Origin: a virus
Direction: 5' to 3' (one strand)
Virus record (IMG/VR): IMGVR_UViG_3300007735_000776
Coordinates: 1-62,893 of that record
DNA length: 62,893 nucleotides
This document shows, one piece after another, positions 2,282 through 21,910 of this stretch. Both the position numbers and the translations under genes were made by a program. The notes under the pieces are model-generated. The model saw nothing but the letters and a program-made list of their open reading frames with translations. It was not told the DNA's origin and ran no database searches. The first letter of the stretch is position 1; each line of letters opens with the position of its first letter.

Positions 2282-3796
2282 TTAATAGAACGGCTGGTTG
2301 CGCCGCTTGAAAAATGGTTGTTCCTCGTCCTCATCCAAGAGGGTGCGTATGTATCCACCACGCCTAAATCGCATCAATGCCAAAGACACCGAGTCAACAT
2401 AGTCGTCATGCTCCCCCGCAGGGAAGCTTGCTACCTCATCAATAACTTCTTCTGCCCACTGTGTGTTGGGTGCCCAGACACGGCCTGACGCGAACAGGTC
2501 AGACACCGCATTAAGTCTTGAAATCTTGTCGTTACCCCTGACCGGCGTGAACTCCTGTACCGGTATACCCATCGCTCTCATCTCGTAGATGAGTGGGGCA
2601 CCTGACGCCTTTTTCTCCACAATGATCGAATCGGGCTCCCACTCCTTACACTCCTCAATAGCTTTCTTTTTAAGCGCTGGAAACTCAAGACGATCCCTAA
2701 ACGCATTGAGGAGGATGATATTGGCTTGTTTGACACCGGTATCGTCGTCCATATAAAAGACGCCCCACGTGGTGCAGGCGCTATAGTCAGCACGGTTAGT
2801 TTTTTCAAACGCCGTATCCCAAGCTTGCAGCACAAAATCACAATATGGCGGGTTATCCTCTTCCCATATCTGCCACCATTCACGTTTGACGATAGCAGAG
2901 GACTCAGATGTGGGGTTCTGCTGGTACTGAGCCATCCATTTAGCGTTGGGAAGCTCGTTTTTTAGCGCCTCTAATTCTTTTTTAGACCAAAACTGAGGCC
3001 AAAGCGGTTGGCCTGACTCAAAAAGCGCCGGAAACTCGATCACTTCCCACTCTTCACCACTTCTTTGGGCTGCGGACTTCAAAACTTGGCCTGTTAAGTC
3101 CTTTTTAGACCATCTCGTCATCACTATGACGATGGCTCCCCCCGGTTGCAGACGCTGACGAGGGCCAGATGTGTACCACTCGTAGGTCTTATCGTAGATT
3201 TCGGGGTTCACTTCGGCAAGTGCTGCCTCTTGTTCGCTATGTGGATCGTCAATAATGAGCAAATCAGCGCCCTTACCGGTAACAGCACCGCCGACACCAA
3301 TAGCAAAGTACTCACCAGCGTAATTTGTAGCCCAACGCCCAGCGGCTTTCGAGTCTGCTTGTAGCGCAACATCGGGAAAAAGGTCCTTATAACGGTCTGA
3401 GTCCACTAAGTTACGAACTTTTCGACCAAAACCTACCGCTAATTCAGCAGTGTGGGAGGTCTGGATCACTTTTTTGCTAGGAAATTTTCCCAAAAACCAA
3501 CTCGGCAATAAATACGACGCAAACTCCGACTTAGTGTGACGTGGCGGCATGTTGATAATCAGGCGTTTTACCTTGCCTTCTGCCACCCGCTCGAACGCAC
3601 GTGCCATCTTCTCGTGATGTCTGCCGTGGATGAAGTTAGGCCAGACGTACTTCACGTACTCCATGAAGTTACTTTTAGCGACATCCTGCGCTTTAGCTCG
3701 CCGGGCCTCGGCGATGAGTGCCCCGACCTTCTGTTGTACAGCCGGTGGCAGGTTGGGGAGAGCCTCTTGTGCTTTACGAAGGAGTTCCGGACTCAT
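2282..3796 (-). CDS. terL: Terminase large subunit
   Basis: This is the ATP-driven packaging motor and headful or site nuclease. With the start at ATG 3796 it has 504 residues. A Walker A-like P-P-R-H-T-K-S lies at about 84-90 and Walker B L-L-I-I-D-D-P at about 179-185. The RNase H-like nuclease domain shows acidic residues in Q-A-W-D-T (about 327), V-E-K-K-A-S-G (about 394) and H-D-D-Y-V-D (about 463-467). The frame extends to ATG 3844, but the M-S-P-E-L-L start at 3796 has a G-rich ribosome site and overlaps the small subunit by only 23 bases. It is the second gene of the leftward late operon. Confidence 0.95.
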   Translation of the reverse strand: MSPELLRKAQEALPNLPPAVQQKVGALIAEARRAKAQDVAKSNFMEYVKYVWPNFIHGRHHEKMARAFERVAEGKVKRLIINMPPRHTKSEFASYLLPSWFLGKFPSKKVIQTSHTAELAVGFGRKVRNLVDSDRYKDLFPDVALQADSKAAGRWATNYAGEYFAIGVGGAVTGKGADLLIIDDPHSEQEAALAEVNPEIYDKTYEWYTSGPRQRLQPGGAIVIVMTRWSKKDLTGQVLKSAAQRSGEEWEVIEFPALFESGQPLWPQFWSKKELEALKNELPNAKWMAQYQQNPTSESSAIVKREWWQIWEEDNPPYCDFVLQAWDTAFEKTNRADYSACTTWGVFYMDDDTGVKQANIILLNAFRDRLEFPALKKKAIEECKEWEPDSIIVEKKASGAPLIYEMRAMGIPVQEFTPVRGNDKISRLNAVSDLFASGRVWAPNTQWAEEVIDEVASFPAGEHDDYVDSVSLALMRFRRGGYIRTLLDEDEEQPFFKRRNQPFY

Positions 3797-4370
3797 CCGT
3801 ATCCCCCGACTCACCAAGCTCCTCATCGATATCGATGTCGGCAATACTCTTAGGAGCGTCTTCCTTAAACGTCACATCGGTAACACCGCCGTACAGCTCT
3901 AACGTCTTCATCAAATCCGTCTCAATATCTTGTACGGTGCGATGCGTAATGTTGATGTCAATGCGTTCAGAGAACAAGCCAACACCTGCAATCCGCCCTA
4001 AGTTTTCCAGTGCCTTCATGCGCTGGCGAGGATCAGGGTCAACGGACTCAACGAGCAACTTGTTGGTCACGTAATTTCTAAGACGGCGGGATACGTCCAG
4101 CACCTCTTGGTCCCATTCATCAAGAATGGCTTCCAGATTCAGTATGGTGCCGGGGGTTAGCTGTTTGGCAGAAGGAATCTTTTTGGTAGCGAAGATTTCG
4201 TGGGACTTCGCCTTGTCGTCGGGAGTGATGTCTACTTGCGCCCCTTGGCTTATAAGTTCTTGGACTGTTTCAAAGAGGGCGTGCGCCTTCTGACGAAAGT
4301 CGTCGATTTCCTCCGGCGTGGTGTCGAAGGGAAGTGGGATACCCACTTCAGGCGTTGCGAGTATAGGCAT
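3774..4370 (-). CDS. terS: Terminase small subunit
   Basis: This 198-residue protein is encoded immediately upstream of and overlapping terL. Small subunits bind the packaging start site and regulate the motor. The sequence has a central helical region (about 60-135) and an acidic, Ser/Thr-rich C-terminal tail rich in I-D-I-D-E-E, a common arrangement for the tail that contacts the large subunit. ATG 4370 follows ACGGA. A leftward promoter at 4434-4406 gives a leader of roughly 30 bases. Identity is inferred mainly from position and general architecture, since small subunits diverge rapidly. Confidence 0.75.
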   Translation of the reverse strand: MPILATPEVGIPLPFDTTPEEIDDFRQKAHALFETVQELISQGAQVDITPDDKAKSHEIFATKKIPSAKQLTPGTILNLEAILDEWDQEVLDVSRRLRNYVTNKLLVESVDPDPRQRMKALENLGRIAGVGLFSERIDINITHRTVQDIETDLMKTLELYGGVTDVTFKEDAPKSIADIDIDEELGESGDTDESGTPS

Positions 4371-4693: not shown

Positions 4694-4709
4694 ATTAACA
4701 GCTGTTAAT
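4694..4709. promoter_or_regulatory. Palindromic site 1 (perfect)
   Basis: ATTAACAGCTGTTAAT is a perfect 16-bp inverted repeat, followed by AAAT. It lies about 33 bases upstream of the probable early promoter -35 and is the first of the eleven dispersed sites. Confidence 0.8.
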
Positions 4710-4741
4710 AAATCGAATGGTGTACCCTGTCAAAAAATGCT

Positions 4742-4770
4742 TTGATTATTCGAACACTCCGCTATATTAG
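4742..4770 (+). promoter_or_regulatory. Probable rightward early promoter
   Basis: TTGATT (4742-4747) with a 17-base spacer to TATTAG (4765-4770), or the overlapping TATATT two bases earlier, makes a plausible sigma70 promoter about 50 bases upstream of the first rightward gene. The match is only moderate; the position, in the divergent region next to palindrome 1, supports it. Confidence 0.45.
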
Positions 4771-4821
4771 AACCATGTCGAGCGCATCTCGGCATAACTA
4801 ATCTAAACAACGGAGGAAATT

Positions 4822-5325
4822 ATGAAATACGAAACACTTACCAAAAACGTAATCGACGCGGTTCGCAACGAGTTAACAGGTGTTAATAAATGGCAAGTCG
4901 CGGGAACTAGCGTGCGCGAGTTCTACGGCACTGAAACGGCACTGACCGAAGTCAAGGCGCAATTCATTGCGGATGCCATCTTGCCAGCGCTCGACAAAAA
5001 ACACGCCACTGCACTCGCCGCCGAGTTACCTCGTAAGGGTAGCAAAGAATATAACGCGCTCGATGCCGCTGGGGTTGCCAAGTGGGAAATTCAGAATCAA
5101 GCGAAAAAAGATGCGCGCTCGACTGCGGCGACGATGTTCTCGCGCATCGTTGGCTACGCTTTCCCGAAAGAAAAAACCGAGAGCGCACCGAAATCGCTTG
5201 AGACTAAATTGCTCGAACTTATCAACGATGCAATTGGCAAAATTGAAAAGGCTGAAAGTCCCGAGTTCGATGCACTCGCGGCACTGACCCACTTGCGCGG
5301 CGCGGTTTCAATCATTGCCAAGTAA
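4822..5325 (+). CDS. Hypothetical early protein, 167 residues
   Basis: This is the first gene of the rightward block, with a strong GGAGGAAAT ribosome site before ATG 4822. The protein is mixed alpha-helical and charged, with no cysteine cluster, membrane segment or family motif I recognise. Residues about 18-22 (L-T-G-V-N) are encoded by palindromic site 2, so the DNA site lies within the first 65 bases of the gene. The first-gene position suggests a host-takeover or regulatory role, which is inference only. A GC-rich hairpin follows the stop. Confidence 0.8.
   Translation: MKYETLTKNVIDAVRNELTGVNKWQVAGTSVREFYGTETALTEVKAQFIADAILPALDKKHATALAAELPRKGSKEYNALDAAGVAKWEIQNQAKKDARSTAATMFSRIVGYAFPKEKTESAPKSLETKLLELINDAIGKIEKAESPEFDALAALTHLRGAVSIIAK
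4873..4886. promoter_or_regulatory. Palindromic site 2, inside first early gene
   Basis: TTAACAGGTGTTAA, flanked by TAAAT on the right, lies 178 bases after site 1. It encodes L-T-G-V-N in the overlapping gene. Confidence 0.75.
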
Positions 5326-5331
5326 TCACTC

Positions 5332-5349
5332 GCCCCCCGCAAGGGGGGC
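5332..5349 (+). other. Intercistronic GC-rich hairpin
   Basis: GCCCCCC, a GCAA tetraloop (GNRA type) and GGGGGGC form a perfect 7-bp stem directly after the first early gene. There is no U-run, so it is more likely an mRNA-stabilising or processing hairpin than a terminator. Confidence 0.6.
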
Positions 5350-5369
5350 ATCACTCAAGGGAAAATGAA

Positions 5370-5546
5370 ATGCACCACACAATCACTCTGGAATTCGACG
5401 GCATCGAGCGGCGCTATGAAACTCAGTCTTACAACGATGCAATCGTTTTAGTTGACGCATTAACAAGAATTCATTCCGGCGCTCGTGTTTGTCTGTTAGA
5501 TCAGCATGGTCACGAAACCTACGTTTATGATCCGCACTTCGCATAA
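5370..5546 (+). CDS. Small hypothetical protein, 58 residues
   Basis: ATG 5370 follows AAGGGAAA. The 58-residue product begins M-H-H-T-I-T-L-E-F-D and ends D-P-H-F-A. It looks like a small beta/alpha protein with no membrane segment or metal-binding cysteines. It lies between the GC-rich hairpin and a strong terminator, so it is the last gene of the first early transcript. The competing ATG at 5365 is out of frame and gives only a short peptide. Function unknown. Confidence 0.65.
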   Translation: MHHTITLEFDGIERRYETQSYNDAIVLVDALTRIHSGARVCLLDQHGHETYVYDPHFA

Positions 5547-5564
5547 CCAACCTTGCCCCACTCG

Positions 5565-5591
5565 CCCCGACTTCGGTCGGGGTTTTTTATT
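5565..5591 (+). terminator. Rho-independent terminator
   Basis: CCCCGAC (5565-5571), a UUCG tetraloop closed by C-G (5572-5575) and GTCGGGG (5576-5582) are followed by TTTTTTATT. The 7-bp stem, stable UUCG loop and U-tract make it a textbook intrinsic terminator ending the first early transcription unit. Confidence 0.9.
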
Positions 5592-5658
5592 GTCCGCTGT
5601 TTCCATCATCTTTGATGATAGTAGCTGTAGCTGATGAAGATGATGATGCAACAACTTA

Positions 5659-5672
5659 TTAACAGGTGTTAA
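5659..5672. promoter_or_regulatory. Palindromic site 3, intergenic
   Basis: TTAACAGGTGTTAA, with an outer A/T pair extending it to 16 bp, lies about 70 bases after the first terminator and just before the opposed TGTTCC/GGAACA hexamer clusters. Confidence 0.75.
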
Positions 5673-5695
5673 TGCGGATGAGGCACAGCGCAGCG

Positions 5696-6028
5696 TGTTC
5701 CAAGCAGGGCAGACCTTTGTTCCGTTTGTTCCAGCTTTGTTCCGTTCGCTGGAACAGCCAAAACCGTTGGTACGCCTACGTTTTGAGGCTTTTTTATATG
5801 TTTGTTCCATTGTTCCACATATATATAACACCTTCCCAAAAATTCTTTTTCACTTTACATTGTTAAGTATGGGATTCTCCCTGCCTTCGTGACTTCGTCG
5901 GCAGGTGTATTTTTGCGGAACATGGAACAGAACCCACAACCAATCACGCAACACGTTGATTTTAAATACATTTCGTGCGTTTTAAAACGCGGAACAAAGC
6001 CAGAACAAGCGGAACAAAACATGGAACA
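5696..6028. other. Candidate replication origin: opposed hexamer clusters
   Basis: TGTTCC occurs at 5696, 5718, 5727, 5738, 5803 and 5811. Its complement GGAACA occurs at 5751, 5917, 5924, 5991, 6011 and 6023. The two sets are almost fully segregated and point at each other across an AT-rich tract (about 5790-5870). The stretch is non-coding, 491 bases between genes at 5546 and 6038, and sits at the start of the replication-side block. Iteron-like hexamers around an AT-rich tract are what a plasmid-type origin looks like. The assignment is inference: no initiator gene is adjacent, and operator function is an alternative. Confidence 0.4.
5880..5914 (+). terminator. Weak terminator-like hairpin
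   Basis: CCTGCC (5880-5885) and GGCAGG (5900-5905) form a 6-bp stem with a 14-base loop, followed by TGTATTTTTG. The stem is short and the U-run interrupted, so this is only a possible attenuator ahead of the zinc-ribbon gene. Confidence 0.3.
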
Positions 6029-6037
6029 GGAGAACAC

Positions 6038-6250
6038 GTGACAACAAACACGAAATTTTGTCGCTTATGTGGTAGCTCAATTACTCCACCTGAGCGACGT
6101 TCCATAACATCTTTGTGTATGACGTGTGGAGAAGCAGAAGCGCGGAAGGTAAAGCACTGCATAGTTCCGATGCACAAGTCGAACTATATTGCAGTTTTCG
6201 ACAAAGATGTATTAACAGGTGTTAATCAAAAGGGAGGAATCGTCAAATGA
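6038..6250 (+). CDS. Small zinc-ribbon protein
   Basis: The frame opens at 5975, but the best start is GTG 6038 with AGGAG six bases upstream; the region before it belongs to the hexamer cluster. The 70-residue product has C-R-L-C near residue 9 and C-M-T-C near residue 30, the two knuckles of a four-cysteine zinc ribbon. Such small proteins usually bind nucleic acid or other proteins. Palindromic site 4 encodes L-T-G-V-N near the C-terminus. The stop overlaps the next start as ATGA, implying translational coupling. Confidence 0.7.
   Translation: MTTNTKFCRLCGSSITPPERRSITSLCMTCGEAEARKVKHCIVPMHKSNYIAVFDKDVLTGVNQKGGIVK
6212..6225. promoter_or_regulatory. Palindromic site 4, at 3' end of zinc-ribbon gene
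   Basis: TTAACAGGTGTTAA with the outer A/T pair. It ends about 22 bases before the next start codon and is read as L-T-G-V-N in the overlapping gene. Confidence 0.75.
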
Positions 6251-6417
6251 AGTACAAAGGCATAGTGAAATTCACCTACATCCAAATGATCGAGGTAGAA
6301 GCTGCAACCCAAGAGAGTGCGCAGGAGATCATCTGGGAAAAACTCGATAGGTCAAGAGCGGTGGAGGATGGGGTCGAACTCTACGATATATGGGAGGTTA
6401 CTGATGGACAGGTTTGA
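6247..6417 (+). CDS. Small hypothetical protein, 56 residues
   Basis: The ATG at 6247 overlaps the previous stop (ATGA) and follows a GGAGG-type site. The 56-residue product begins M-K-Y-K-G-I-V-K-F and has the look of a small ferredoxin-like or swapped-hairpin fold: a beta-strand, a helix rich in A/E/Q, then a terminal strand ending I-W-E-V-T-D. This pattern is common in small phage proteins and gives no function. It overlaps the next tiny gene by 14 bases. Confidence 0.65.
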   Translation: MKYKGIVKFTYIQMIEVEAATQESAQEIIWEKLDRSRAVEDGVELYDIWEVTDGQV

Positions 6418-6490
6418 CGTTGTTGGCTTGATATGTTTTTGTATGCTAATCGTGATGCTGTTTGCTGAATACATGGAGTTACTCGAATGA
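6404..6490 (+). CDS. Single-pass membrane micropeptide, 28 residues
   Basis: GGAGG lies seven bases upstream of ATG 6404, and the stop overlaps the next start as ATGA. The 28 residues are M-D-R-F-D, a hydrophobic stretch (V-V-G-L-I-C-F-C-M-L-I-V-M-L-F) and an acidic tail, consistent with one membrane helix. The ribosome site and tight coupling on both sides argue for translation. Early phage membrane micropeptides often alter host membrane functions; no specific role can be given. Confidence 0.55.
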   Translation: MDRFDVVGLICFCMLIVMLFAEYMELLE

Positions 6491-6693
6491 AACTAATTAA
6501 CCGCAAGACAGGTAAAGAGGTGCAGATTGGCGACACCCTGATCCGCAAGAACTACAAAGGTTTCAAGCATCGGTTCGAGGTGCTTGCGATTGGCAAAGAG
6601 TTGATCCACGTCAGAAAGTTGGGTGCAGATGACCAGTGGATTTACTTGAACGTGCATCCCGAATCCTTGCAGTTGGATTGGGTGTTGGTGTGA
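6487..6693 (+). CDS. Small hypothetical protein, 68 residues
   Basis: Coupled to the micropeptide by ATGA. The basic, beta-rich sequence (K-L-I-N-R-K-T-G-K-E-V-Q-I-G-D at the start, then V-L-A-I-G-K and I-H-V-R) reads like a small SH3-like barrel, as in many phage nucleic-acid-associated proteins. That fold guess is from the strand pattern alone. Function unknown. Confidence 0.7.
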   Translation: MKLINRKTGKEVQIGDTLIRKNYKGFKHRFEVLAIGKELIHVRKLGADDQWIYLNVHPESLQLDWVLV

Positions 6694-6748
6694 AAACAAG
6701 TTGGTAGAAGTTAATTTAGGTACGTTTTAACGGACACAAGGAGGGTCT

Positions 6749-6904
6749 ATGACTGAAGCAGAATGGGATGAGCATATCGATGCGCTGTACGCGCGGTGGG
6801 TGGCAGACAACGAGGCGTATGCGTTCGAGGACAACTACGAGCCGTTTGAGATTAAAACGCAACCGCAGAAATCAAACGATGAACTACTTACCAAAACAAG
6901 TTAA
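6749..6904 (+). CDS. Small acidic hypothetical protein, 51 residues
   Basis: AAGGAGG lies just upstream of ATG 6749. The 51-residue product is acidic and rich in Trp, Tyr and Asp/Glu (M-T-E-A-E-W-D-E-H-I-D at the start), with a polar C-terminal tail. Its TAA stop (6902-6904) is formed by palindromic site 5, so the site, the stop and the next gene's ribosome site share one short block. Acidic early phage proteins are sometimes DNA mimics; nothing specific supports that here. Confidence 0.65.
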   Translation: MTEAEWDEHIDALYARWVADNEAYAFEDNYEPFEIKTQPQKSNDELLTKTS

Positions 6905-6920
6905 CAGGAGTTAATAAATG
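6901..6920 (+). promoter_or_regulatory. Palindromic site 5 fused with stop, RBS and start
   Basis: TTAACAGGAGTTAATAAATG combines a one-mismatch palindrome (6901-6914), the TAA of the upstream gene, an AGGAG Shine-Dalgarno and the ATG of the next gene. An identical 20-mer occurs at 9266-9285. The single change from TGTTAA to AGTTAA is what creates the Shine-Dalgarno. Confidence 0.75.
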
Positions 6921-7790
6921 CGAAATTACTACCAAGACTACAAGAACCTGCACGACTCGATCACACCGATACGTGGCAGGGCGGTTGACGTGCGGCCCAT
7001 CGGAGAGCGCAGGAGGGATTGGGAAACCATACGTATGGATGGAGATGTTGTGGCATGCCGCCTACACAACACGGACGTGGTGCGCTACTACCCAGATGGC
7101 AAAATCGGGTTGCAATGCGATGGCTGGCACACCCCATCAACGGCAGACTTCATGCACATCCACTCGCCGTGGTCATGCTTCAAACGGAACAATAAGTTGT
7201 GGGTGATGGCGCGTAACGAGGAACAGAAAGCCATGCACTACCCCATACCCAACAAGGGAGAGATTGTGTTTGAGCGTATACCCGATGCACTGCACAGTGG
7301 TTGGCGCCCCGTCGGAGATATTGTCGTGGAGAAACGTGTTGTCAATCGTGCGAAAGCAAGGGAAGCGCGGACACCATACCAACCGTTCCTGCAATGGGCT
7401 AAGACATTCTTAAAGATGTCCGATGGTTGGATCATGCACGAGACTAGGAAGCAGGTGCTACCGATGGAGAGGAACTACTTTCAGTATGACAAGTACCCTG
7501 ATGCGAAGGTGATGGAGTTAACTAGATCGGGCGATGACATGCGGTACTTGGAGGCTTTGTGTGTGCTGCTAACAAGCGGGGCGATAGAAAAGCGGGTTGC
7601 GGAGGTGATCCAGCCGGAGCCAATGATTATTCAAGGAGTTAACTACGCGATACCAACAACCCACTACGACTTGCGGTACGACTACGAGTCACTACGCACA
7701 CGCCTATACAAGATGGTGGAGAAGGTGTCGGAGATACATGACAGGGTGCGCGTGGGTGTGTCCGAGCGTGCCCAAACGAACGTGGTGTAA
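6918..7790 (+). CDS. Conserved hypothetical protein before MoxR-type ATPase
   Basis: 290 residues with the start fixed by the AGGAG inside palindromic site 5. It is rich in Arg, Tyr and Trp, with R-G-R-A-V-D-V-R-P near the N-terminus, a beta-rich first half (about 30-150) and helical segments to the end. I recognise no catalytic motif or membrane segment. It lies directly upstream of the promoter for the AAA+ gene and may belong to the same functional cassette, for instance as a substrate or adaptor of the ATPase. That role is inferred from position only. Confidence 0.75.
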   Translation: MRNYYQDYKNLHDSITPIRGRAVDVRPIGERRRDWETIRMDGDVVACRLHNTDVVRYYPDGKIGLQCDGWHTPSTADFMHIHSPWSCFKRNNKLWVMARNEEQKAMHYPIPNKGEIVFERIPDALHSGWRPVGDIVVEKRVVNRAKAREARTPYQPFLQWAKTFLKMSDGWIMHETRKQVLPMERNYFQYDKYPDAKVMELTRSGDDMRYLEALCVLLTSGAIEKRVAEVIQPEPMIIQGVNYAIPTTHYDLRYDYESLRTRLYKMVEKVSEIHDRVRVGVSERAQTNVV

Positions 7791-7794
7791 AAGC

Positions 7795-7823
7795 TTGACA
7801 ACCAGTAACAGTTATGTTATAAT
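7795..7823 (+). promoter_or_regulatory. Near-perfect sigma70 promoter for the MoxR-VWA cassette
   Basis: TTGACA (7795-7800), exactly 17 bases, then TATAAT (7818-7823): both hexamers are full consensus. The predicted start near 7830 gives a leader of about 68 bases to ATG 7898, which has an AAAGGAG ribosome site. This is the strongest promoter I see in the window and would be read by host polymerase. Confidence 0.9.
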
Positions 7824-7897
7824 ATGTCTTACAGTGGTAGTAGCGAGAAGTAAACCAGCGGTACTTGCGAAGCAACATCAACTAAAAGGAGAAACAA

Positions 7898-8995
7898 ATG
7901 AGTGCAATCAACTTTGGTCATTCCGTATCTTTGCAGGAGTTCTCGAAAGCAATCGGGCAGGTAGGGCGTAGTGTCACCATCATCGGACAGGGCGAGCCGG
8001 GCATTGGCAAGTCTGCCATGCTGAAAGTTCTTTCCAAGCAACACCCAGACTACGCAACGGCGTACATCGACTGCACCCTGCTGGACTTGGGCGACTTTGC
8101 CCTGCCATATACAGAGAGCGTATTAACAGATGTTAATACAGAGGGCAGCGTCACGAAGATCACTAAGTTCGCACCAAACGCACGGTTCAAGATGCACGAG
8201 GGCAAGCCGGTGATCGTGATGCTTGACGAGATCGGCAAGGCAATGAAGGCGGTCAAGAATGTGCTGCTGACTTTGATGCTGGAGCACAGGATCGGTGACC
8301 ACTATCTGCCCGAGGGTAGCATCGTGTTCGGTACTACAAACTTGTTGACAGATGGTGTTGGTGACATGCTCGAAGCTCATGCAAGGAATCGTGTGTGCTT
8401 TGTGACCGTGCGCAAGCCTGATGCAGACGAGTGGATCGAGTGGGCAATCAGTAACAACATTGATCCAACCATCATCGCGTGGGTCAAGCAGTTCCCGCAT
8501 GCACTGGCAAGCTATACCGACGGATCGCAGAAGGAGAACCCATACATATTCAACCCGACGCGTGCCGGTAACGGTGCGGTGGTTACACCAAGAAGTTTGG
8601 AGAAGGCATCGAACATCGCTAAGCAACGTGGCGAACTAGGTGACGCACTAACAATCAGTCTACTCACAGGCACTATTGGTGAGAGCGCAGCGCGTGACAT
8701 GCAAGCCTTCTTTACTGTGGTGGACAAGCTGCCGACATGGGATGCCATCCTGAATGATCCGAAGAACGCGAAGCTGCCGGACGATACGGTTGCCAAATGT
8801 ATCTTGGTGTTCTCTGCGGTGACACGTGTGACTAAGGATACGTTGGACAAGTGGATGGGTTACATGCAGCGCATGGACATGGAGTGGCAAGCCTTGTTCG
8901 CAACGAGCGTGATGAAGTCCACTGACAAGCAGTCGTTCTGTGTCATGAACAAAGAGTTCAAGGACTGGGCACTGAAGAATCAGTGGTTGTTCTGA
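7898..8995 (+). CDS. MoxR-type AAA+ ATPase
   Basis: 365 residues. Walker A G-E-P-G-I-G-K-S is at 32-39 and Walker B V-I-V-M-L-D-E at about 105-111. A sensor-like G-T-T-N follows near 146 and an arginine-finger-like A-R-N-R-V near 162. The layout matches AAA+ proteins of the MoxR/CobS/NorQ group, hexameric chaperone ATPases that act with VWA-domain partners to insert metals or remodel complexes. A VWA protein is encoded two genes downstream, which strengthens the call. Palindromic site 6 encodes L-T-D-V-N at 76-80. Transcription is likely from the promoter at 7795-7823. Confidence 0.9.
   Translation: MSAINFGHSVSLQEFSKAIGQVGRSVTIIGQGEPGIGKSAMLKVLSKQHPDYATAYIDCTLLDLGDFALPYTESVLTDVNTEGSVTKITKFAPNARFKMHEGKPVIVMLDEIGKAMKAVKNVLLTLMLEHRIGDHYLPEGSIVFGTTNLLTDGVGDMLEAHARNRVCFVTVRKPDADEWIEWAISNNIDPTIIAWVKQFPHALASYTDGSQKENPYIFNPTRAGNGAVVTPRSLEKASNIAKQRGELGDALTISLLTGTIGESAARDMQAFFTVVDKLPTWDAILNDPKNAKLPDDTVAKCILVFSAVTRVTKDTLDKWMGYMQRMDMEWQALFATSVMKSTDKQSFCVMNKEFKDWALKNQWLF
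8123..8136. promoter_or_regulatory. Palindromic site 6, inside ATPase gene
   Basis: TTAACAGATGTTAA with the outer A/T pair extending it to 16 bp. It lies about 300 bases downstream of the strong promoter and is read as L-T-D-V-N. Confidence 0.75.
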
Positions 8996-8996
8996 T

Positions 8997-9269
8997 ATGT
9001 GGAACCTGAAAGCGGGTGGGTTTGATACTGCGCTGGAATTGTTTGGAAGCGATAGTTTTATCGTGCAAGCACTTTCGATTCTTCCAAGGTATCAAGTCGA
9101 GGTGATGAAATTCTCAAGCGTGGAAGGAAACAAGTTTAGGATTATTCGTCTTGAGGATGACCCATCAACACCGAAACATGTACCTCGCAAAGTGTTGCTT
9201 GCTGAGTTCGATGATGCAAATGAGTTTGTTGCAATGGCGAGATTGATCTTGGCAAGTGAAACAAATTAA
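8997..9269 (+). CDS. Hypothetical protein between ATPase and VWA genes
   Basis: 90 residues, starting one base after the ATPase stop, so it is probably translated by reinitiation; its own Shine-Dalgarno is weak. Sequence features are a G-G-F-D-T-A-L-E-L-F N-terminus, a beta-hairpin-like middle and a helical C-terminus. The stop TAA is formed within palindromic site 7. No family recognised. The conserved order ATPase, this gene, VWA suggests a small accessory subunit. Confidence 0.75.
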   Translation: MWNLKAGGFDTALELFGSDSFIVQALSILPRYQVEVMKFSSVEGNKFRIIRLEDDPSTPKHVPRKVLLAEFDDANEFVAMARLILASETN

Positions 9270-9285
9270 CAGGAGTTAATAAATG
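9266..9285 (+). promoter_or_regulatory. Palindromic site 7 fused with stop, RBS and start
   Basis: Identical 20-mer to 6901-6920: a degenerate palindrome (9266-9279) carrying the upstream stop codon, AGGAG, and the ATG of the VWA gene at 9283. Confidence 0.75.
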
Positions 9286-10479
9286 ACCAAGCTAAGTGCC
9301 GAGCAGCGTGTGCAACGTGCGCACGTGTGGCTCATGAAACATCCGAACTATTGTTTGTACTCCGGCATCTTCATGTTGGGTAAGACAAGCGTAGAGGATG
9401 ACGTGTCAACTGCATGTACCGATGGGCGCAACGTCGAGTACGGTCGGGCGTTCACGGACAAGCTAAGCGAAGCAGAGCTACGTGCTGTTGTATTGCACGA
9501 GAATTTGCACAAAGCTTTCCGTCATCTGAGCATGTGGAAACATCTTTACAAAGAGCATGCACAGCTTGCGAACATGGCGTGTGACTACGTGATCAACCTG
9601 ATGATCGATGATTCTGATCCGTCGAACACCAACGTGAAGCTACCTGACTGTGGCTTGCTTGACCCGAAGTATCGTGGTTGGGATTCGCAGCGGGTGTTCA
9701 ACGACTTGAAGCAACAAGCTGACGAGGGGAGCGTCAAGATCAAGACCAAAGGTGACCCGATTGGTAAGGACGTGCCAGTGGTAGACGTGCCCGACTTAGA
9801 TGCTCATGACTGGGACGGCGCTGAGGGGATGAGTAACGAAGAGAAAGAAGTTCTTGCGCGTGACGTTGATCAGGCGTTGCGTCAAGGCGCGATACTCGCG
9901 GGGAAGATGAAGGGTAATGTTCCACGTGAAATCACTGACGTGCTGGAGGCGAAGGTTGATTGGCGTGACGCATTGCGTGAATTCATCACGTCGTTCTGTA
10001 TGGATAGAGATGAATCGACATGGCGTCGTCCTTCACGCAGGTGGATAGGACAAGATGTTTACATGCCTAGCTTGATCGGCGAGTCGGTCGGTCGCATCGT
10101 GGTAGCTATCGACATGTCAGGCTCTATCGGTGCGGAGGAGATCGGTCAGTTCTTGGGCGAGGTGCGAAGCATTTGTGATCACGTCAAGCCCGAGGGTATC
10201 GACTTGTTGTATTGGGATACTGAGGTATGTCAGCACGAGAAGTATGAACAAGATCAACTGGACAACTTGTTATCAAGTACCAAGCCCCGAGGTGGTGGCG
10301 GCACTGATCCGCAGTGCATCGTCAACTACATGAGCGATCACAAGATCAAGGCTGAGTGTGCAGTGATATTGACCGATGGCTATGTAGGTTCATGGGGCAA
10401 AGACTGGCAATGTCCTACGCTTTGGGGCATTACTAGTGACGTAGTGAGCGCGGTTGGTAAGACCGTGAAGGTGCAGTGA
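9283..10479 (+). CDS. VWA-like / putative metallopeptidase protein
   Basis: 398 residues. The N-terminal half has H-E-N-L-H at 72-76, a zinc-peptidase HExxH motif within the context L-H-E-N-L-H-K-A-F-R-H. The C-terminal half is a VWA-like domain with the MIDAS pattern D-M-S-G-S at 278-282, Thr about 342 in G-G-G-T-D-P and Asp about 366 in L-T-D-G-Y. This HExxH plus VWA arrangement matches the DUF2201/COG3864 family. Such proteins are usual partners of MoxR-type ATPases, as here. Whether the HExxH site is catalytic or only structural cannot be told. The next gene overlaps as GTGA. Confidence 0.88.
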   Translation: MTKLSAEQRVQRAHVWLMKHPNYCLYSGIFMLGKTSVEDDVSTACTDGRNVEYGRAFTDKLSEAELRAVVLHENLHKAFRHLSMWKHLYKEHAQLANMACDYVINLMIDDSDPSNTNVKLPDCGLLDPKYRGWDSQRVFNDLKQQADEGSVKIKTKGDPIGKDVPVVDVPDLDAHDWDGAEGMSNEEKEVLARDVDQALRQGAILAGKMKGNVPREITDVLEAKVDWRDALREFITSFCMDRDESTWRRPSRRWIGQDVYMPSLIGESVGRIVVAIDMSGSIGAEEIGQFLGEVRSICDHVKPEGIDLLYWDTEVCQHEKYEQDQLDNLLSSTKPRGGGGTDPQCIVNYMSDHKIKAECAVILTDGYVGSWGKDWQCPTLWGITSDVVSAVGKTVKVQ

Positions 10480-10658
10480 AGCCGTTAAAGCCAAGCACGT
10501 ACGCAGTATTGAGGGATAAAGATGGACACATTCGCTACGTCAGCGAGTACGCCATGAAGAACTTCAAGCACATACGGCAAGGCGATAAGGTGATAGGGCG
10601 CGGGTTAACCGTGGAAGAAGTAAATGCGTTACTTAAATTAACACCTGTTAACAAATAG
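10476..10658 (+). CDS. Small hypothetical protein, 60 residues
   Basis: Starts at GTG 10476, overlapping the VWA stop as GTGA, so it is coupled to it. It is basic and contains Y-A-V-L-R-D-K-D-G-H-I-R-Y-V-S followed by a helix and a V-I-G-R-G-L-T-V-E-E-V-N-A-L-L-K segment. The last residues (L-T-P-V-N-K) are encoded by palindromic site 8, which abuts the stop codon. Function unknown. Confidence 0.7.
   Translation: MKPLKPSTYAVLRDKDGHIRYVSEYAMKNFKHIRQGDKVIGRGLTVEEVNALLKLTPVNK
10638..10651. promoter_or_regulatory. Palindromic site 8 (inverted centre)
   Basis: TTAACACCTGTTAA is the only copy whose centre reads CC and not GG, i.e. the opposite orientation of the common form. It overlaps the end of the preceding gene and lies 17 bases before the next ATG. 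Confidence 0.75.
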
Positions 10659-10667
10659 GAGAGTGCC

Positions 10668-11537
10668 ATGATTCAGAATAGTTCAATGTTGGTTGACCTA
10701 AACATCTCGGTATGGACAGGTCGCAAGCAAGACAAACGTGTGTCCGATGAGATCGATGCCGCCAAGAGTACCAAGACGAGGGCTGGCAACTATCATAAGA
10801 AATTGCTGGCAGGTACACAGAAGCTAGATGACTTGCAAAAGTTAACTACAGGTATTCGTACGTGGCACTACACGCAGACGTTGCCGTGGTCGGATGGTGG
10901 CTCACGCCTACTACCCATGAAGAACTTCTTTGACTACAAAGCTACGTTGTCTGACTTGGAGACGCAGTTCAATGATGCAGTGGAGTCGTTCCTAGTTGAT
11001 TACCCTACGCTGGTATCCGCTGCGGCGTTTCAGTTGGGTGACTTGTTCGATGCCTCAGAGTATCCAGATGTCGAGCGACTACGTGACAAGTTCCGCTTCC
11101 GCTTTGTGTTCTTGCCAGTGCCTGACGTGGGTGACTTCCGCATCGATGTTAACGAGCAGCACAAAGCCGAGTTGGTTCAACAATACGAATCGTTTTACCA
11201 GAACAAGTTGTCAGAAGCAATGCAGGACGCTTGGGATCGGCTGCACGATTGCGTATCTAAGATGAGCGAGAAGCTGGCGAACGCACCTGCACCACGACTG
11301 ACCAAAGATGGTGACGAGAATTACACACAGATATTCCGTGATTCGCTGGTGACTAATGCGGTGGAGTTGTGTGAGTTGCTGACCAAACTCAACGTGACTA
11401 ATGACCCGAAGCTGGAGAACGTACGTAAGAATCTGGAATCCACTATCGATGGTGTATCGGCTAAGGAGTTGCGTGAGGATGATGGCTTGCGCTTGGTCGT
11501 AAAGGCAGAGGTAGACAAGATTCTGTCTATGTTCTGA
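10668..11537 (+). CDS. Conserved cassette protein, DUF3150-like
   Basis: 289 residues, AGGAGAGTGCC ribosome context before ATG 10668. The N-terminus (L-N-I-S-V-W-T-G-R-K) and the internal W-S-D-G-G-S-R-L-L-P-M-K are features I associate with a conserved phage/plasmid family resembling DUF3150, whose members are typically encoded beside MoxR-type ATPases and VWA proteins. The rest is long amphipathic helices (about 85-289), suggesting an elongated or oligomeric structural partner. Family assignment is from memory of sequence style and neighbourhood, so it is tentative. It belongs to the ATPase-VWA cassette by order and strand. Confidence 0.7.
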   Translation: MIQNSSMLVDLNISVWTGRKQDKRVSDEIDAAKSTKTRAGNYHKKLLAGTQKLDDLQKLTTGIRTWHYTQTLPWSDGGSRLLPMKNFFDYKATLSDLETQFNDAVESFLVDYPTLVSAAAFQLGDLFDASEYPDVERLRDKFRFRFVFLPVPDVGDFRIDVNEQHKAELVQQYESFYQNKLSEAMQDAWDRLHDCVSKMSEKLANAPAPRLTKDGDENYTQIFRDSLVTNAVELCELLTKLNVTNDPKLENVRKNLESTIDGVSAKELREDDGLRLVVKAEVDKILSMF

Positions 11538-11542
11538 ATAAG

Positions 11543-11556
11543 TTAACACGTGTTAA
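11543..11556. promoter_or_regulatory. Palindromic site 9 (perfect core), intergenic
   Basis: TTAACACGTGTTAA is a perfect 14-bp palindrome in the 37-base gap between two genes, followed by TAAAT and then the AAGGAG of the next gene. Confidence 0.8.
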
Positions 11557-11574
11557 TAAATCAAGGAGAGTGCG

Positions 11575-12378
11575 ATGTTAAATTTTGTAGATGTTGAGAA
11601 AGCCGATGGAACTCCGCTACTGAGTATTGTGAAAGAGTTCCGGCGTGTGCAGGTCAGTCGGTTCCCAATCAACGTGGTGTTCACATCGGGGATACAGGCT
11701 AAGTTCTACGACAGCAGGTTTCCTAACCTAAAGCCTGTTGCTAACGTATGGCAAGACTCTGATAGGGAGGGTGACTATTGGGTTATTGAATCTCGCAACA
11801 TAGTCAACGAGAAGTACAGGAACGAGCGTCGGCATCGTAAGCAAACGAAGGATGATAAGAAGCTGTTTCGGTTCATGCGTGAATACATCAAGCCAGTCTC
11901 ATCCCAAGATGTTGCTATGGATAAGCTATCTACCTTCCAACACCACATTGAAGAGTGGAAGCGTGATGCAGAGATGAAGATGCGAAACGTCACAGACATT
12001 TCCAGAAACGACGTGATGGCTGAGATTATCCGTATGAAAGCAGTTGGGTATCAACCACAGACAGAGAAGTTTGCACGAGTTATGGATAGCGGTATCGAGG
12101 CGTGGGTAGAGTATCGTCGCAGACGTGAGCGCAGGATCATGCAGGTGCACGTGCTCATCAACCCTGATGATTCTGTCGAGGTTTACTGCCCTGACTTGCT
12201 TGGGTATGGCGGCATACAACAAGGCAACAACAACTACAACTCGATGGACGAGGCACCAATGTGCGTTCAACAACAAGTTGCCATGCTGCGCATGATCGAG
12301 GACAAGGCGTTCATTCCTGAAGTGGGCAGCAAGATAAACAGCCATCAGTATTGGATCGAGGTGATGCCTGAAGAATAA
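11575..12378 (+). CDS. Hypothetical cassette protein, 267 residues
   Basis: ATG 11575 follows AAGGAGAGTGCG. The protein has a beta-rich N-terminal third (about 1-75), a highly basic R-R-H-R-K-Q-T-K-D-D-K-K stretch near 90, helices through about 200 including R-R-R-R-E-R-R near 185, then a beta-strand region. The positive charge suggests nucleic-acid or capsid contact; I recognise no family. It is the last gene before a new promoter at 12394, so it probably ends the MoxR-VWA transcription unit or is read through. Confidence 0.75.
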   Translation: MLNFVDVEKADGTPLLSIVKEFRRVQVSRFPINVVFTSGIQAKFYDSRFPNLKPVANVWQDSDREGDYWVIESRNIVNEKYRNERRHRKQTKDDKKLFRFMREYIKPVSSQDVAMDKLSTFQHHIEEWKRDAEMKMRNVTDISRNDVMAEIIRMKAVGYQPQTEKFARVMDSGIEAWVEYRRRRERRIMQVHVLINPDDSVEVYCPDLLGYGGIQQGNNNYNSMDEAPMCVQQQVAMLRMIEDKAFIPEVGSKINSHQYWIEVMPEE

Positions 12379-12393
12379 TCTTTGTCATAGTGC

Positions 12394-12422
12394 TTGACAC
12401 AGTTCGAAAGCGTTTATATATT
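12394..12422 (+). promoter_or_regulatory. Strong sigma70 promoter
   Basis: TTGACA (12394-12399), 17 bases, TATATT (12417-12422): a consensus -35 and a 5/6 -10. It lies just after the 267-residue gene and within the upstream extension of the next open frame, which shows that the true start of that gene is the ATG at 12444. Confidence 0.85.
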
Positions 12423-12443
12423 ACAAGAACGAAGAAGGTTACT

Positions 12444-12734
12444 ATGACTGAGATTGAATTGGCAACATTACGATTTTTCATTTGGGTAAAGCTTGACGCG
12501 ACAGGTGACGTGATTGAACTCATTCTTGGAGACAACGCATTACTTGATACCGTGAAGCTACCCGATATTTCTGAAGTACCACAGTTCGTGAGGGATAGAC
12601 TTGCGTTACTTAAATTAACAGGTGTTAATAGATCAAACATCAAAGACATTGTAGGTAGAAAGATGTCTGACGAGATGATGATTCTTTACTTAAACCGTGA
12701 TGAGTACGATCAAATAAAGGAAGAGTGCAAATGA
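12444..12734 (+). CDS. Hypothetical protein, 96 residues
   Basis: The frame is open from 12390, but a promoter occupies that stretch and GAAGG precedes ATG 12444, so the start is placed there. The acidic 96-residue product has a helical N-terminus (T-E-I-E-L-A-T-L-R-F-F-I) and a C-terminal L-K-L-T-G-V-N-R segment encoded over palindromic site 10. The stop overlaps the next start as ATGA. It is the first gene of the transcript from 12394. Function unknown. Confidence 0.7.
   Translation: MTEIELATLRFFIWVKLDATGDVIELILGDNALLDTVKLPDISEVPQFVRDRLALLKLTGVNRSNIKDIVGRKMSDEMMILYLNRDEYDQIKEECK
12615..12628. promoter_or_regulatory. Palindromic site 10, inside 96-residue gene
   Basis: TTAACAGGTGTTAA with the outer A/T pair. 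The preceding bases (CTTAA) match those before site 8, hinting that more than the core was copied. Confidence 0.75.
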
Positions 12735-12907
12735 AAAAGAAACTTTCAGCGCAGGACGAGATAGCTAACTTGGAGAATCGATTAGCCAAAGCACGAGCCG
12801 AGATCGACAACCTACAACATCAACTACAGCAACTAACCATCAAGTACTACGACACGGCAGCAGTGCTGAAGTATTTGGAATCTAAACTAAGCATCACGAG
12901 AAAGTAA
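12731..12907 (+). CDS. Small coiled-coil protein
   Basis: 58 residues from ATG 12731, which overlaps the previous stop. AAGGAAGAGTGCAA lies upstream. The sequence is almost entirely heptad-like (A-N-L-E-N-R-L-A-K-A-R-A-E-I and further leucines), so it should form a coiled coil and oligomerise. It lies directly before a VRR-NUC nuclease and may be its partner or an independent scaffold. That link is positional. Confidence 0.7.
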   Translation: MKKKLSAQDEIANLENRLAKARAEIDNLQHQLQQLTIKYYDTAAVLKYLESKLSITRK

Positions 12908-12909
12908 CC

Positions 12910-13242
12910 ATGCCTACCCCTGAGAGCAAAGTTAAGGATAAGGTAAAGAAGTTGTTAGCTGAGCATGGAGCCTACTACTTCATGCCAGCTACGCATGGTT
13001 ATGGATCGTCGGGTGTGCCTGACATTGCAGCTTGCATAAACGGAAGGTTTATCGGGATAGAGTGCAAGGCCAACGGCGGTAAGGCCACCGCTCTCCAGTT
13101 GAAGAATCTGCGGGAACTATCATCGGCGGGGGGCATAGCAGTCCTCATCGACGAAACCGGATTGGACGATTTGGAAGCTTTATTAACAGGCGTTAATAAA
13201 TTAAACGATGGCATCTTTCTTAGTTTTTTAAAAGGAGACTGA
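12910..13242 (+). CDS. VRR-NUC domain nuclease
   Basis: 110 residues. The pattern G-S-S-G-V-P-D-I-A-A (Asp near 38), I-G-I-E-C-K-A-N (Glu-X-Lys near 50-52) and the downstream K-A-T-A-L-Q-L (Gln near 60) is the PD-(D/E)XK core of the VRR-NUC family, single-domain, Mg-dependent nucleases thought to act on branched DNA. In phages they are usually linked to recombination or processing of replication intermediates. Palindromic site 11 encodes L-T-G-V-N near the C-terminus. Confidence 0.88.
   Translation: MPTPESKVKDKVKKLLAEHGAYYFMPATHGYGSSGVPDIAACINGRFIGIECKANGGKATALQLKNLRELSSAGGIAVLIDETGLDDLEALLTGVNKLNDGIFLSFLKGD
13183..13196. promoter_or_regulatory. Palindromic site 11 (one mismatch)
   Basis: TTAACAGGCGTTAA, followed by TAAAT; one base off the palindrome. 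This is the last copy of the family going rightward. I find none in the remaining 49 kb. Confidence 0.65.
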
Positions 13243-15893: not shown

Positions 15894-16189
15894 AGTTGGA
15901 AAAATTAGCGCAAGCTTTGAATGATGTGCGTAACAAGTTCAAGATCGACAGTACCGACCTGCTGATCATCAACTATATATTGGAGATGAAGAAGCATGGT
16001 GACGTGCTGACCATGCAGTTCGTGAAAAACTTTGAAGGCGCGTCGGAGGCAACTACCCATATGCGTATGAAGAAGTTAATCAAGCGTGGCTTACTCGCAC
16101 GGGTGGGCGATGATCAAAACCTACGTATCAAGAAGTTGGAGCCGACAGGTAAGACCAACGAATTACTCAAGTACCTTGCGGAGATTTAA
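15890..16189 (+). CDS. MarR-like winged-helix protein C
   Basis: 99 residues, coupled by ATGA and followed by polA with a one-base TAATG overlap. Residues about 20-75 have the L-L-I-I-N-Y-I-L-E helix, an HTH in S-E-A-T-T-H-M-R-M-K-K-L, and a wing, as in the core of MarR/ArsR-type regulators. Direct coupling to the polymerase gene suggests a role in controlling or assisting replication, which is inference. Confidence 0.75.
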   Translation: MKLEKLAQALNDVRNKFKIDSTDLLIINYILEMKKHGDVLTMQFVKNFEGASEATTHMRMKKLIKRGLLARVGDDQNLRIKKLEPTGKTNELLKYLAEI

Positions 16190-18012
16190 TGATAATCACC
16201 GTAGACTTTGAGACGTACTACGACAAAGAGTTCTCGCTATCGAAGCTGACCACCGAGGAATACATACGCGACGATAAGTTTGAGGTCATCGGGGTTGGTG
16301 TAAAAGTTGATGGTGCAGAGACATCTTGGTTCAGCGGAACTAAAGACGAGACACGCAAGTATCTACGTCAGTTCGATTGGGCAAACTCCCTTGTGCTGGC
16401 ACACAACACCATGTTTGATGGAGCCATTCTGTCTTGGCATTTCGGCGTAACTCCGAAGGGCTGGTTAGATACCCTGTGCATGGCACGTGCGCTCAATGGT
16501 GTGGATGCAGGAGGGAGCCTCAAAGCATTAGCAGAGCGGTATCAGATCGGGGTCAAAGGCGACGAGGTTATCAATGCATTGGGCAAGCGTCGCACTGACT
16601 TTGATTCGGATGCGATGGCGAAGTATGGCGAGTACTGCAAGAACGATGTGGACTTGACGTATACCCTGTTTAATATCCTGATGGAGTCGTTTCCTAAGAA
16701 AGAACTTAAGGTTATCGACACTACTCTAAAGATGTTTGTAGAACCAGAGTTGGAGTTAGATACCGCACTACTGGAGCAGCATCTTGCCGATGTGAAAGCC
16801 AAGAAGGAAAAGCTACTGGCAGCGGCGGCAGCGGACAAAGATATATTGATGTCCAACGACAAGTTCGCAGAGTTGCTGATCAGTCTGAAGGTAGAGCCGC
16901 CACGGAAGATCAGTGCGCGTACAGGCAAGGAGGCGTGGGCATTTGCTAAGACTGACGAAGAGTTCAAAGAGTTAGCTACCCATCCTGACCCCAGAGTACA
17001 AGCGCTAGTGGCAGCACGGCTTGGCACCAAAACAACTTTAGAAGAGACGCGGACGCAAAGGTTTATTGATATTTCCAATCGGGGTAAGCTGCCTGTACCC
17101 ATCAAATACTACGCCGCACATACTGGACGGTGGGGTGGAGATGACAAGATCAACCTGCAAAACCTACCAAGCCGAGGGCAGAACGCAGGTAAGTTAAAGA
17201 CATCCATCAAGCCGCCAGAGGGCTACGTCATCATCGACTCGGACTCATCGCAGATCGAAGCACGGACAGTTGCATGGCTGGCAGGGCAAGATGATTTGGT
17301 TGAGGCGTTCGACAAAGGCGAGGACGTGTACAAGATCATGGCCTCTGCTATCTACGGTAAAGAAGTTGCAGACATCACCAAAGAAGAACGGTTCGTGGGT
17401 AAGACTACGATTCTTGGTGCAGGTTATGGCATGGGGGCTGAGAAGTTCCAAGCACAACTTAAAACTTTTGGGGTCGAAGTCTCACTGGAAGAGTGTAAAA
17501 GAATTATCGCGGTGTATCGACAGACCTACGACAAGATTCCAGCACTGTGGAGACAAGCACATAGTTGTTTAAGCGCCATCATCAGCGGTAGTGGTGCGGC
17601 GTTTGGTGCGGTGGATGCAGTTCAGTTTGACCCAACCGAGCGTGGGTTCCTGCTACCAAGCGGACTATGGCAGCGGTATGAGGGGTTGCAAAAGGTGTAT
17701 GACCCCGAGGGCAAGGAGCAGTACCAGTACAAGACCCGCAAGGGGATTGTGAAAATCTATGGTGGTAAGGTGGTCGAGAACATCTGCCAAGCAGTTGCTA
17801 GATGTGTAATTGCAGAGCAGATGCTCAAGATTGCTAAGAAGTACAAGGTGGTGCTCACCGTACATGATGCTGTGGCGTGTATCGCACCGATGGAAGAGGC
17901 TCGTGATGCAAAAATTTACGTAGAAACTTGTATGCAGTGGCGTCCTGATTGGGCTGCCACATTACCTTTGAACTGTGAAATTGGTATTGGAGAAAACTAT
18001 GGAAGTTGCTAA
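16189..18012 (+). CDS. polA: DNA polymerase, family A (3'-5' exonuclease + polymerase)
   Basis: 607 residues. The N-terminal exonuclease has D-F-E-T at 6-9, an H-N-x-x-x-D motif near 75-80 and N-D-V-D near 149-152. The polymerase domain has motif A D-S-D-S-S-Q-I-E near 350, motif B with K and Y-G in the 402-418 region, and motif C V-H-D-A near 557. There is no 5'-3' exonuclease domain and the protein is shorter than bacterial Pol I, as in T7-type replicative enzymes. It is the phage's replicative polymerase. The downstream gene overlaps its end by 14 bases. Confidence 0.95.
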   Translation: MIITVDFETYYDKEFSLSKLTTEEYIRDDKFEVIGVGVKVDGAETSWFSGTKDETRKYLRQFDWANSLVLAHNTMFDGAILSWHFGVTPKGWLDTLCMARALNGVDAGGSLKALAERYQIGVKGDEVINALGKRRTDFDSDAMAKYGEYCKNDVDLTYTLFNILMESFPKKELKVIDTTLKMFVEPELELDTALLEQHLADVKAKKEKLLAAAAADKDILMSNDKFAELLISLKVEPPRKISARTGKEAWAFAKTDEEFKELATHPDPRVQALVAARLGTKTTLEETRTQRFIDISNRGKLPVPIKYYAAHTGRWGGDDKINLQNLPSRGQNAGKLKTSIKPPEGYVIIDSDSSQIEARTVAWLAGQDDLVEAFDKGEDVYKIMASAIYGKEVADITKEERFVGKTTILGAGYGMGAEKFQAQLKTFGVEVSLEECKRIIAVYRQTYDKIPALWRQAHSCLSAIISGSGAAFGAVDAVQFDPTERGFLLPSGLWQRYEGLQKVYDPEGKEQYQYKTRKGIVKIYGGKVVENICQAVARCVIAEQMLKIAKKYKVVLTVHDAVACIAPMEEARDAKIYVETCMQWRPDWAATLPLNCEIGIGENYGSC

Positions 18013-18187
18013 GGTAGTTGATTACGCCTATCCCACGATGATGGCAGAGAAAGCATTGAAGAACCTGCACGAAGCCATGCTTGAGGGGAATCTTGATGAA
18101 GCTTTAGAGCACGCACGTAGAGCGCAAGCGGAGTGCAAGCTGGCGTACCACGCCATCCTAGTCGCGAAAGAAAAACACAATGGCTAA
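17999..18187 (+). CDS. Small helical protein, 62 residues
   Basis: GGAG precedes ATG 17999, inside the last codons of the polymerase gene. Helical throughout (A-E-K-A-L-K-N-L-H-E-A-M-L-E-G-N-L-D-E-A-L-E-H-A-R-R spread over residues 14-45), with a two-helix hairpin look. It overlaps the next gene by eight bases. It may be a polymerase or nuclease accessory peptide, from position only. Confidence 0.65.
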   Translation: MEVAKVVDYAYPTMMAEKALKNLHEAMLEGNLDEALEHARRAQAECKLAYHAILVAKEKHNG

Positions 18188-21542: not shown

Positions 21543-21900
21543 ACTTGCAAAGGTCTACGTCAAAATACGCGAGAAGCGTCGCGAACTTGCCAAGCAAGAT
21601 AAAGAACTCGAAGAGCAACTAGATGCAGTTGCTAGACAGTTGCTTGAGATTTGCAAAGAGCAAGGAGCCGCAACGATACGCACATCACACGGAACCATCT
21701 CACGCAGAACCACGAAGCGATTCTGGCCTACCGATTGGGATGAGTTCTATAAATTCATCAAGGATCAAGACGCGATGTCGCTTCTTTATCAACGCATCAA
21801 TACAGCAAACATGGAACAGTTTCTTGAAGAAAACCCCGATCTCCATCCGCCGGGGCTGAACGCGGATGTTTCTCAATCCATTGTTATCGTTAAACGCTAG
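21517..21900 (+). CDS. Conserved hypothetical replication-module protein, 127 residues
   Basis: AAGGAGAGTGCAA precedes ATG 21517. The N-terminal half is a coiled coil (K-I-R-E-K-R-R-E-L-A-K-Q-D-K-E-L-E), the second half has R-T-S-H-G-T-I-S-R-R and W-P-T-D-W-D-E-F-Y, ending P-P-G-L-N-A-D-V. I recognise this as a conserved family found next to ssDNA-binding proteins in podovirus-like genomes, reminiscent of Gp157-type proteins, without a known activity. Confidence 0.72.
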   Translation: MSDPINADRLAKVYVKIREKRRELAKQDKELEEQLDAVARQLLEICKEQGAATIRTSHGTISRRTTKRFWPTDWDEFYKFIKDQDAMSLLYQRINTANMEQFLEENPDLHPPGLNADVSQSIVIVKR

Positions 21901-21910
21901 GAGAGTGCAA

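Follow-up and report, generated by a model that had tools for sequence, protein, structure and literature searches.

Phage-inducible chromosomal islands (PICIs) always show two sets of iterons flanking an AT-rich region at their origins (PMC6092414). The Rep protein of Staphylococcus aureus pathogenicity islands (SaPIs) recognises iterons via its C-terminal domain, and Cch2 of the staphylococcal cassette chromosome (SCC) binds short repeats at its putative origin by the C-terminal domain, which does so even when isolated (PMC7581432). For most lytic phages that encode a PrimPol-helicase of their own, no replication origin is known. Here we analysed IMG/VR record IMGVR_UViG_3300007735_000776 (the window: the whole stretch of 62,893 nucleotides), a circular record of a phage, ~62.8 kb long, whose ends share a 128-bp repeat. 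A non-coding repeat array at positions 5696-6028 is probably the replication origin of this phage, with a PrimPol-helicase encoded in the same genome as the proposed iteron reader. A search of the open literature returned no account of a replication origin in this group of phages.

As in SaPI and PICI origins, the array has its two iteron sets on either side of an AT-rich core, and the structural model of the proposed initiator suggests a helicase of the SaPI Rep/Cch fold with a C-terminal DNA-binding domain. Given that this domain reads iterons in Rep and binds the putative origin in Cch2, that PICIs have the two-set plan and that the fold appears to be shared, the array would work like a SaPI/PICI origin. 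Several differences were observed. SaPI and PICI origins lie directly 3' of the initiator gene, whereas here the array is at 5.7-6.0 kb and the PrimPol gene at 23.1-26.0 kb. The window is a full 62.8-kb circular phage with its own terminase and capsid genes rather than a helper-dependent satellite, and it has mirror-image arrays of fixed spacing, an integration host factor (IHF) site, and a primase fused to the helicase. Because the phage is no satellite and its proposed origin lies elsewhere than 3' of the initiator gene, we did not class the array as a SaPI/PICI origin. SCC differs in having few short direct repeats beside cch2 and a separate polymerase-primase. The alpha protein of satellite phage P4 is a fused primase-helicase initiator with iterons, acting at two separate sites (ori and crr) and carrying a superfamily 3 helicase.

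The initial annotation of this locus, made from the letters alone, had reported six TGTTCC and six GGAACA hexamers in about 330 non-coding bases, and the positions proved exact. The parts of the array are as follows.

5696-5756: outer-left iteron cluster, TGTTCC at 5696, 5718, 5727 and 5738 (9- and 11-bp steps within 5718-5738), closed by GGAACA at 5751
5738-5756: palindrome TGTTCC-N7-GGAACA, half-sites 13 bp apart
5790-5850: likely DNA-unwinding element, including ATATATATA, called from duplex stability
5803-5816, plus strand: inner-left iteron pair TGTTCCATTGTTCC, sites at 5803 and 5811
5817-5916: centre between the inner pairs, with an AT-rich start and a fold-back at 5880-5905 (CCTGCC..GGCAGG) found by strand folding
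5917-5929, minus strand: inner-right iteron pair GGAACATGGAACA, sites at 5917 and 5924
5949-5961, minus strand: IHF consensus site AATCAACGTGTTG, called by consensus match
5991-6028, minus strand: outer-right iteron cluster, GGAACA at 5991, 6011 and 6023 and a near-copy AGAACA at 6003, mirroring 5716-5744

Across the whole window and both strands, the hexamer matched 42 times against 32.9 expected. Twelve of these matches fall in 333 bases, where ~0.17 would be expected; the hexamer is thus at chance level outside the array, and its excess inside, also claimed initially, holds. When all 6- and 7-mers were scanned without bias in all 400-bp windows, no other short-repeat cluster of the genome was as strong as the array (log10 E -11.9). 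It lies between a gene ending at 5546 and a gene starting at 6038, with no convincing gene within, and is 1.3 kb from the leftward terminase block. The rightward early/replication genes begin just after it, in agreement with the initial placement at the entry of the replication-side block. Strand segregation was borne out for all hexamers but one: the single GGAACA at 5751 is conserved and forms the palindrome with the TGTTCC at 5738. Beyond what had been annotated, we identified a full repeat unit longer than the hexamer (TTTGTTCC), a mirror symmetry, and the consensus IHF site.

Each side of the array consists of an outer triplet and an inner pair, in mirror image. A 29-nt inverted repeat (5716-5744 and 5990-6018) is 90% identical between arms, and reflection about an axis at 5866.5 brings four of the six forward sites to within 1 bp of a partner. 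This symmetry was reached in 0 of 500 sets of uniformly placed sites, yet it was marginal against gap-shuffled sites (p 0.058), so in the window alone it is only suggestive. The symmetry is firmer once relatives are considered, since they repeat the plan: the palindrome that borders the left cluster on its inner side keeps its 13-14 bp spacing in G001, G011, G014, G016, G017, G019 and G020 (G and L numbers denote genomes and loci of relatives), and the inner pairs are 104-126 bp apart, start to start, in the clades measured, around a centre whose sequence is itself unconserved.

A relative of the PrimPol-helicase is encoded by 589 stretches of the viral collection. Loci L002-L023 were fetched through the downstream zinc-ribbon gene, and the relatives in all of our comparisons are not independent samples. 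L002-L006 keep the array position by position in an identical layout, including the outer-left cluster, which is also matched with other units in G016-G022. Across six divergent genomes with the TGTTCC unit, the hexamer columns were 82% identical to the window versus 51% for other columns, a contrast reached by 1 of 397 circular shifts, the unshifted one included; conservation of the hexamers in relatives, proposed initially as a check, was therefore found. L007-L010 follow the same plan with the unit TTGTTCG and inner triplets at 9-bp steps, and the genomes of L008 and L010 (G002 and G003) carry two inverted IHF sites in the array. Whole-genome scans of relatives that carry the PrimPol gene found a significant cluster wherever the genome covers the syntenic place, except in G018 and Rhizobium phage RHph_TM3_14A. 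Such clusters were listed for G003, G005, G009, G010 and G016-G023; that of G018 is weak, visible by eye as a mixture of TGTTCC and TGTTCA. In the distant relatives, the layout is retained while the repeat unit differs by lineage, as listed here.

TGTTCC: G000, G001, G011, G014, G015, G016, G019, G023
TGTTCAC: G017
TGTTCTA: G020
TGTAAGA: G021, G022
TGTTACAnTGTAACA: G005, G009, G010
TTTGCATAC: Pseudomonas phage Rollin

The G017 unit, read as GTGAACA, presumably resembles the P4 iteron, on a partial check. A DNA-level search of named phages gave no match, and no clear new array was seen in other PrimPol contigs of the Rollin group.

The proposed initiator is encoded on the plus strand, downstream of the array.

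23109-26000, plus strand: PrimPol-helicase, with an archaeo-eukaryotic primase (AEP) N-terminus, a Cch/SaPI-Rep-like helicase and a predicted C-terminal winged helix (~25578-25970)

Its true start is probably the ATG at 23124. We predicted its structure from 54 sequences (mean pLDDT 86, pTM 0.56). In this model, the N-terminus matches the AEP primase S-2L PrimPol (Z 18.5, root-mean-square deviation (rmsd) 2.7, 177 residues). For the predicted helicase half (residues 379-947), the closest fold was SCCmec Cch (5dgk; Z 31.6, rmsd 4.9, 489 residues), along with SaPIBov1 Rep (8tch; Z 28.0, rmsd 6.9, 466 residues; Foldseek E 2.4e-16), and MCM structures scored ~12, far below both. The C-terminal part, folded alone, resembled the TcpK winged helix (5vfy; Z 7.3, rmsd 2.7, 91 residues) and the HSF, Skn7 and ETS domains (Z ~4). 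Z scores this low do no more than suggest a winged helix; the call agrees with the order of elements (strands, two helices, two wing strands) and with the alignment to the C-terminal ends of Cch and Rep. With the modelled fold of known iteron-reading initiator helicases, the PrimPol-helicase is likely the initiator that reads the array.

Iteron-type origins typically pair their repeats with an AT-rich unwinding element, and a candidate was found beside the iterons. Positions 5790-5850 form the second-weakest 60-bp duplex of the genome (dG -1.15 versus a mean of -1.41 kcal/mol/bp), with the inner-left pair inside it. ATATATATA, at 5818-5826, lies in the AT-rich tract that had been described between the hexamer groups. 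In 12 of 15 genomes, at most one 60-bp duplex is weaker than that found in the array region. An IHF site, another mark of such origins, was identified by consensus match alone. At least one consensus site occurs in the array regions of 12 of 18 genomes, and the 18 regions, which are not independent, hold 15 sites versus 0.36 expected from each genome's own density.

The other genes on which the following comparisons draw are listed here.

2282-3844, minus strand: terminase large subunit (TerL), phrog_38
3774-4370, minus strand: probable terminase small subunit (TerS), assigned from position and sequence pattern with no family match; the binder if the array serves packaging
16189-18012, plus strand: DNA polymerase A (PolA)
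18180-18854, plus strand: phage exonuclease, phrog_69
19544-21091, plus strand: SNF2-type DNA helicase, phrog_62; its RHph_TM3_14A homologue is annotated SNF2 family
21866-22801, plus strand: probable single-strand DNA-binding (SSB) protein of 311 aa with acidic tail DEWDD, a call made from sequence only
22782-23033, plus strand: small helix-turn-helix (HTH) protein, alternative array binder, directly upstream of the PrimPol gene and conserved in most relatives

The main rival to an origin is a packaging site of the P1 pac type, in which the small terminase would bind hexamers on both sides, IHF would bend the DNA, and terminase would cut the centre; we consider this unlikely. The plan of P1 pac is very similar: it has two hexamer groups, HEX4 and HEX3, together with a site for IHF and one for cleavage (PMC10028697), and the array likewise combines an IHF site with hexamer groups either side of a centre. 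The array is 1.3 kb from the probable TerS gene, and 023Pt_psg01, HTVC023P and Pag-Yong1, phages with a related TerL and a different replication module, have repeat clusters near TerS or TerL. However, P1 hexamers are TGATC(A/G) and sit inside the terminase gene pacA, whereas the array is non-coding, its units lack GATC, and it has a melting core; a genome-wide minimum of duplex stability would be unexpected at a pac site. Relatives that share the replication genes alone provide the best test between replication and packaging. Rollin and RHph_TM3_14A have PolA, SNF2 helicase, SSB-like protein and PrimPol of the window's kind, and no homologue of the window's TerL, TerS or capsid was detected in them. 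The early operon of Rollin is headed by a region (240-700) that combines the weakest duplex in the Rollin genome with an IHF site and with TTTGCATAC iterons in opposed orientation; the Rollin terminase (6955-8388), unrelated to the window's, is 6 kb from the iterons. In RHph_TM3_14A, the non-coding 19.36-20.12 kb before the early operon contains the only two IHF sites of the genome, inverted, together with its weakest duplex, 7 kb from the terminase at 11.4-12.7 kb. The array-like region thus does not stay with the terminase genes across relatives. An origin is most likely because distant relatives with the same DNA-copying genes show this layout again, built from a changed repeat.

Divergence across relatives gave a more mixed result. 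Iteron distance correlated with the distances of the replication-side proteins (PrimPol r 0.59, SNF2 0.61, SSB-like 0.62) more than with those of portal (0.42), capsid (0.23) and TerL (0.11), and the lack of tracking by TerL speaks against pac. The unit change also follows the adjoining probable TerS, which gave the highest correlation of all (r 0.69), and with TerS held constant PrimPol adds nothing. These two results weigh against an origin, as do several others. The TerS correlation may reflect short-range linkage, since the gene adjoins the array, and packaging could explain it too. No clear iteron was found in the RHph_TM3_14A region before the early operon, and, in contrast to SaPIs, 17 kb separate the array from the gene of the proposed initiator. 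The array region is not an extreme weak duplex in G001, G011 and G003, and the exact IHF site was not found in the array regions of G016-G019. A DnaA box was looked for in the array and none was found; such boxes are common to many iteron origins, and not strictly defining. To these points should be added the marginal symmetry of the window by itself and the non-independence of the relatives. In 12 of 14 genomes, ~2.6 kb or less separates the array from the cumulative GC-skew minimum, another check proposed initially; the distance is 1.9 kb in this one, but the minimum coincides with the switch in gene orientation, and the maximum is not opposite the array. As the minimum follows gene direction, GC skew is weak evidence for an origin, and we rejected it as proof.

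The array could otherwise be an operator for a phage regulator, such as the HTH protein, that controls early transcription, which seems improbable. It is just upstream of the early operon, it has palindromic half-sites 13 bp apart, and the small HTH gene is conserved beside the PrimPol gene. Yet a repressor needs less than the at least 12 sites spread across 330 bp, the fixed spacing across the centre and the melting core seen here, and no plus-strand promoter match was found in the region among sigma-70-type sites, the class covered. The distance of the HTH protein correlates weakly with iteron distance, and the correlation disappears with PrimPol held constant, so we rejected it as the binder. 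A recombination (attP) or partition (centromere) site appears very improbable. Arm-type repeats with IHF resemble lambda attP, and plasmid centromeres can carry iteron arrays; however, the genome has no match to a tyrosine integrase or serine recombinase, nor to ParB in a search with ParB_N. An RNA element was rejected, with no Rfam match near threshold. Among other candidate binders, gene 4822-5325 and the zinc-ribbon gene 6038-6250 were rejected because tblastn found each absent from some array-bearing genomes, and the 311-aa protein was rejected as initiator because it is SSB-like with an acidic tail.

The initial reading of the array as iteron-like and the best origin candidate is therefore supported by the conserved array, the layout recurring with other units, and the initiator-like predicted fold of the PrimPol-helicase. 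At such an origin, the C-terminal winged helix of the PrimPol-helicase would bind the TTGTTCC iterons, with one group of subunits on the left triplet and pair and a second on the right. Because the groups would sit in mirror orientation, two helicase rings could load facing opposite ways. IHF may bend the right arm at 5949-5961, joining outer and inner iterons. The strain would melt the weak duplex at ~5790-5850, where the rings would be loaded, and the fused primase part would make primers. DNA polymerase A, the exonuclease, the SNF2 helicase and the SSB-like protein would then copy in both directions. Extending this beyond the window, we tentatively raise the possibility that a large environmental phage family begins replication at a mirror double iteron array, with head-to-head primase/Rep-like helicase rings, a geometry set by IHF, and an iteron code rewritten several times along with the replication genes.

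If true, this would predict the origin, the initiator and the binding code in a widespread group of phages, and would suggest how bidirectional copying could be started by a self-loading primase-helicase, without host DnaA. At least seven natural iteron/initiator pairs would become available for testing specificity, a natural series for initiator-origin co-evolution, and the SaPI/PICI plan of two iteron sets with a melting core would extend to free-living phages.

Repeats were also noted in phages with other replication modules. Phage 023Pt_psg01 has TGGCACA repeats at 9-bp steps (L086 13575-13790) and HTVC023P has CTAGGAAA repeats (L085 11680-11770), each near a small terminase gene; these clusters could be pac sites or other origins. 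Planktothrix phage Pag-Yong1, which has no match to the window's PrimPol, carries GTCATAC nine times near TerL, as two groups of direct orientation (L084 18130-18480).

In Rollin (OR577172), ~11 kb that include the iteron region (51782-61282 and 1-1454) contain many open frames and are unannotated. At two loci of the Rollin group, long repeats in tandem or inverted order (AAAAGGTAGCAAGTTACTACCTTTT; GCATTATGCAGTGGGTAATGGCTTAACGCTTA) lie next to the origin-like region (L078 1-90 and 390-500; L198 1-125 and 340-420). The PrimPol-helicase of RHph_TM3_14A (MN988472 42239-45322) is annotated as 'putative integrase protein'.

The alignment of the window's TerL to those of G001, G011 and G014 passes through one TAG, probably because the start chosen for the window (TTG 3844) is too far upstream. 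Finally, eleven copies of a palindrome, TTAACNNNNGTTAA (mostly TTAACAGGTGTTAA), were observed at 4695-13196, all in the early region, some intragenic and some over start sites. It is absent from G014, G003, G005 and G017-G022 and present in G001, G011, G016 and G023, and is likely a dispersed operator of a subclade.
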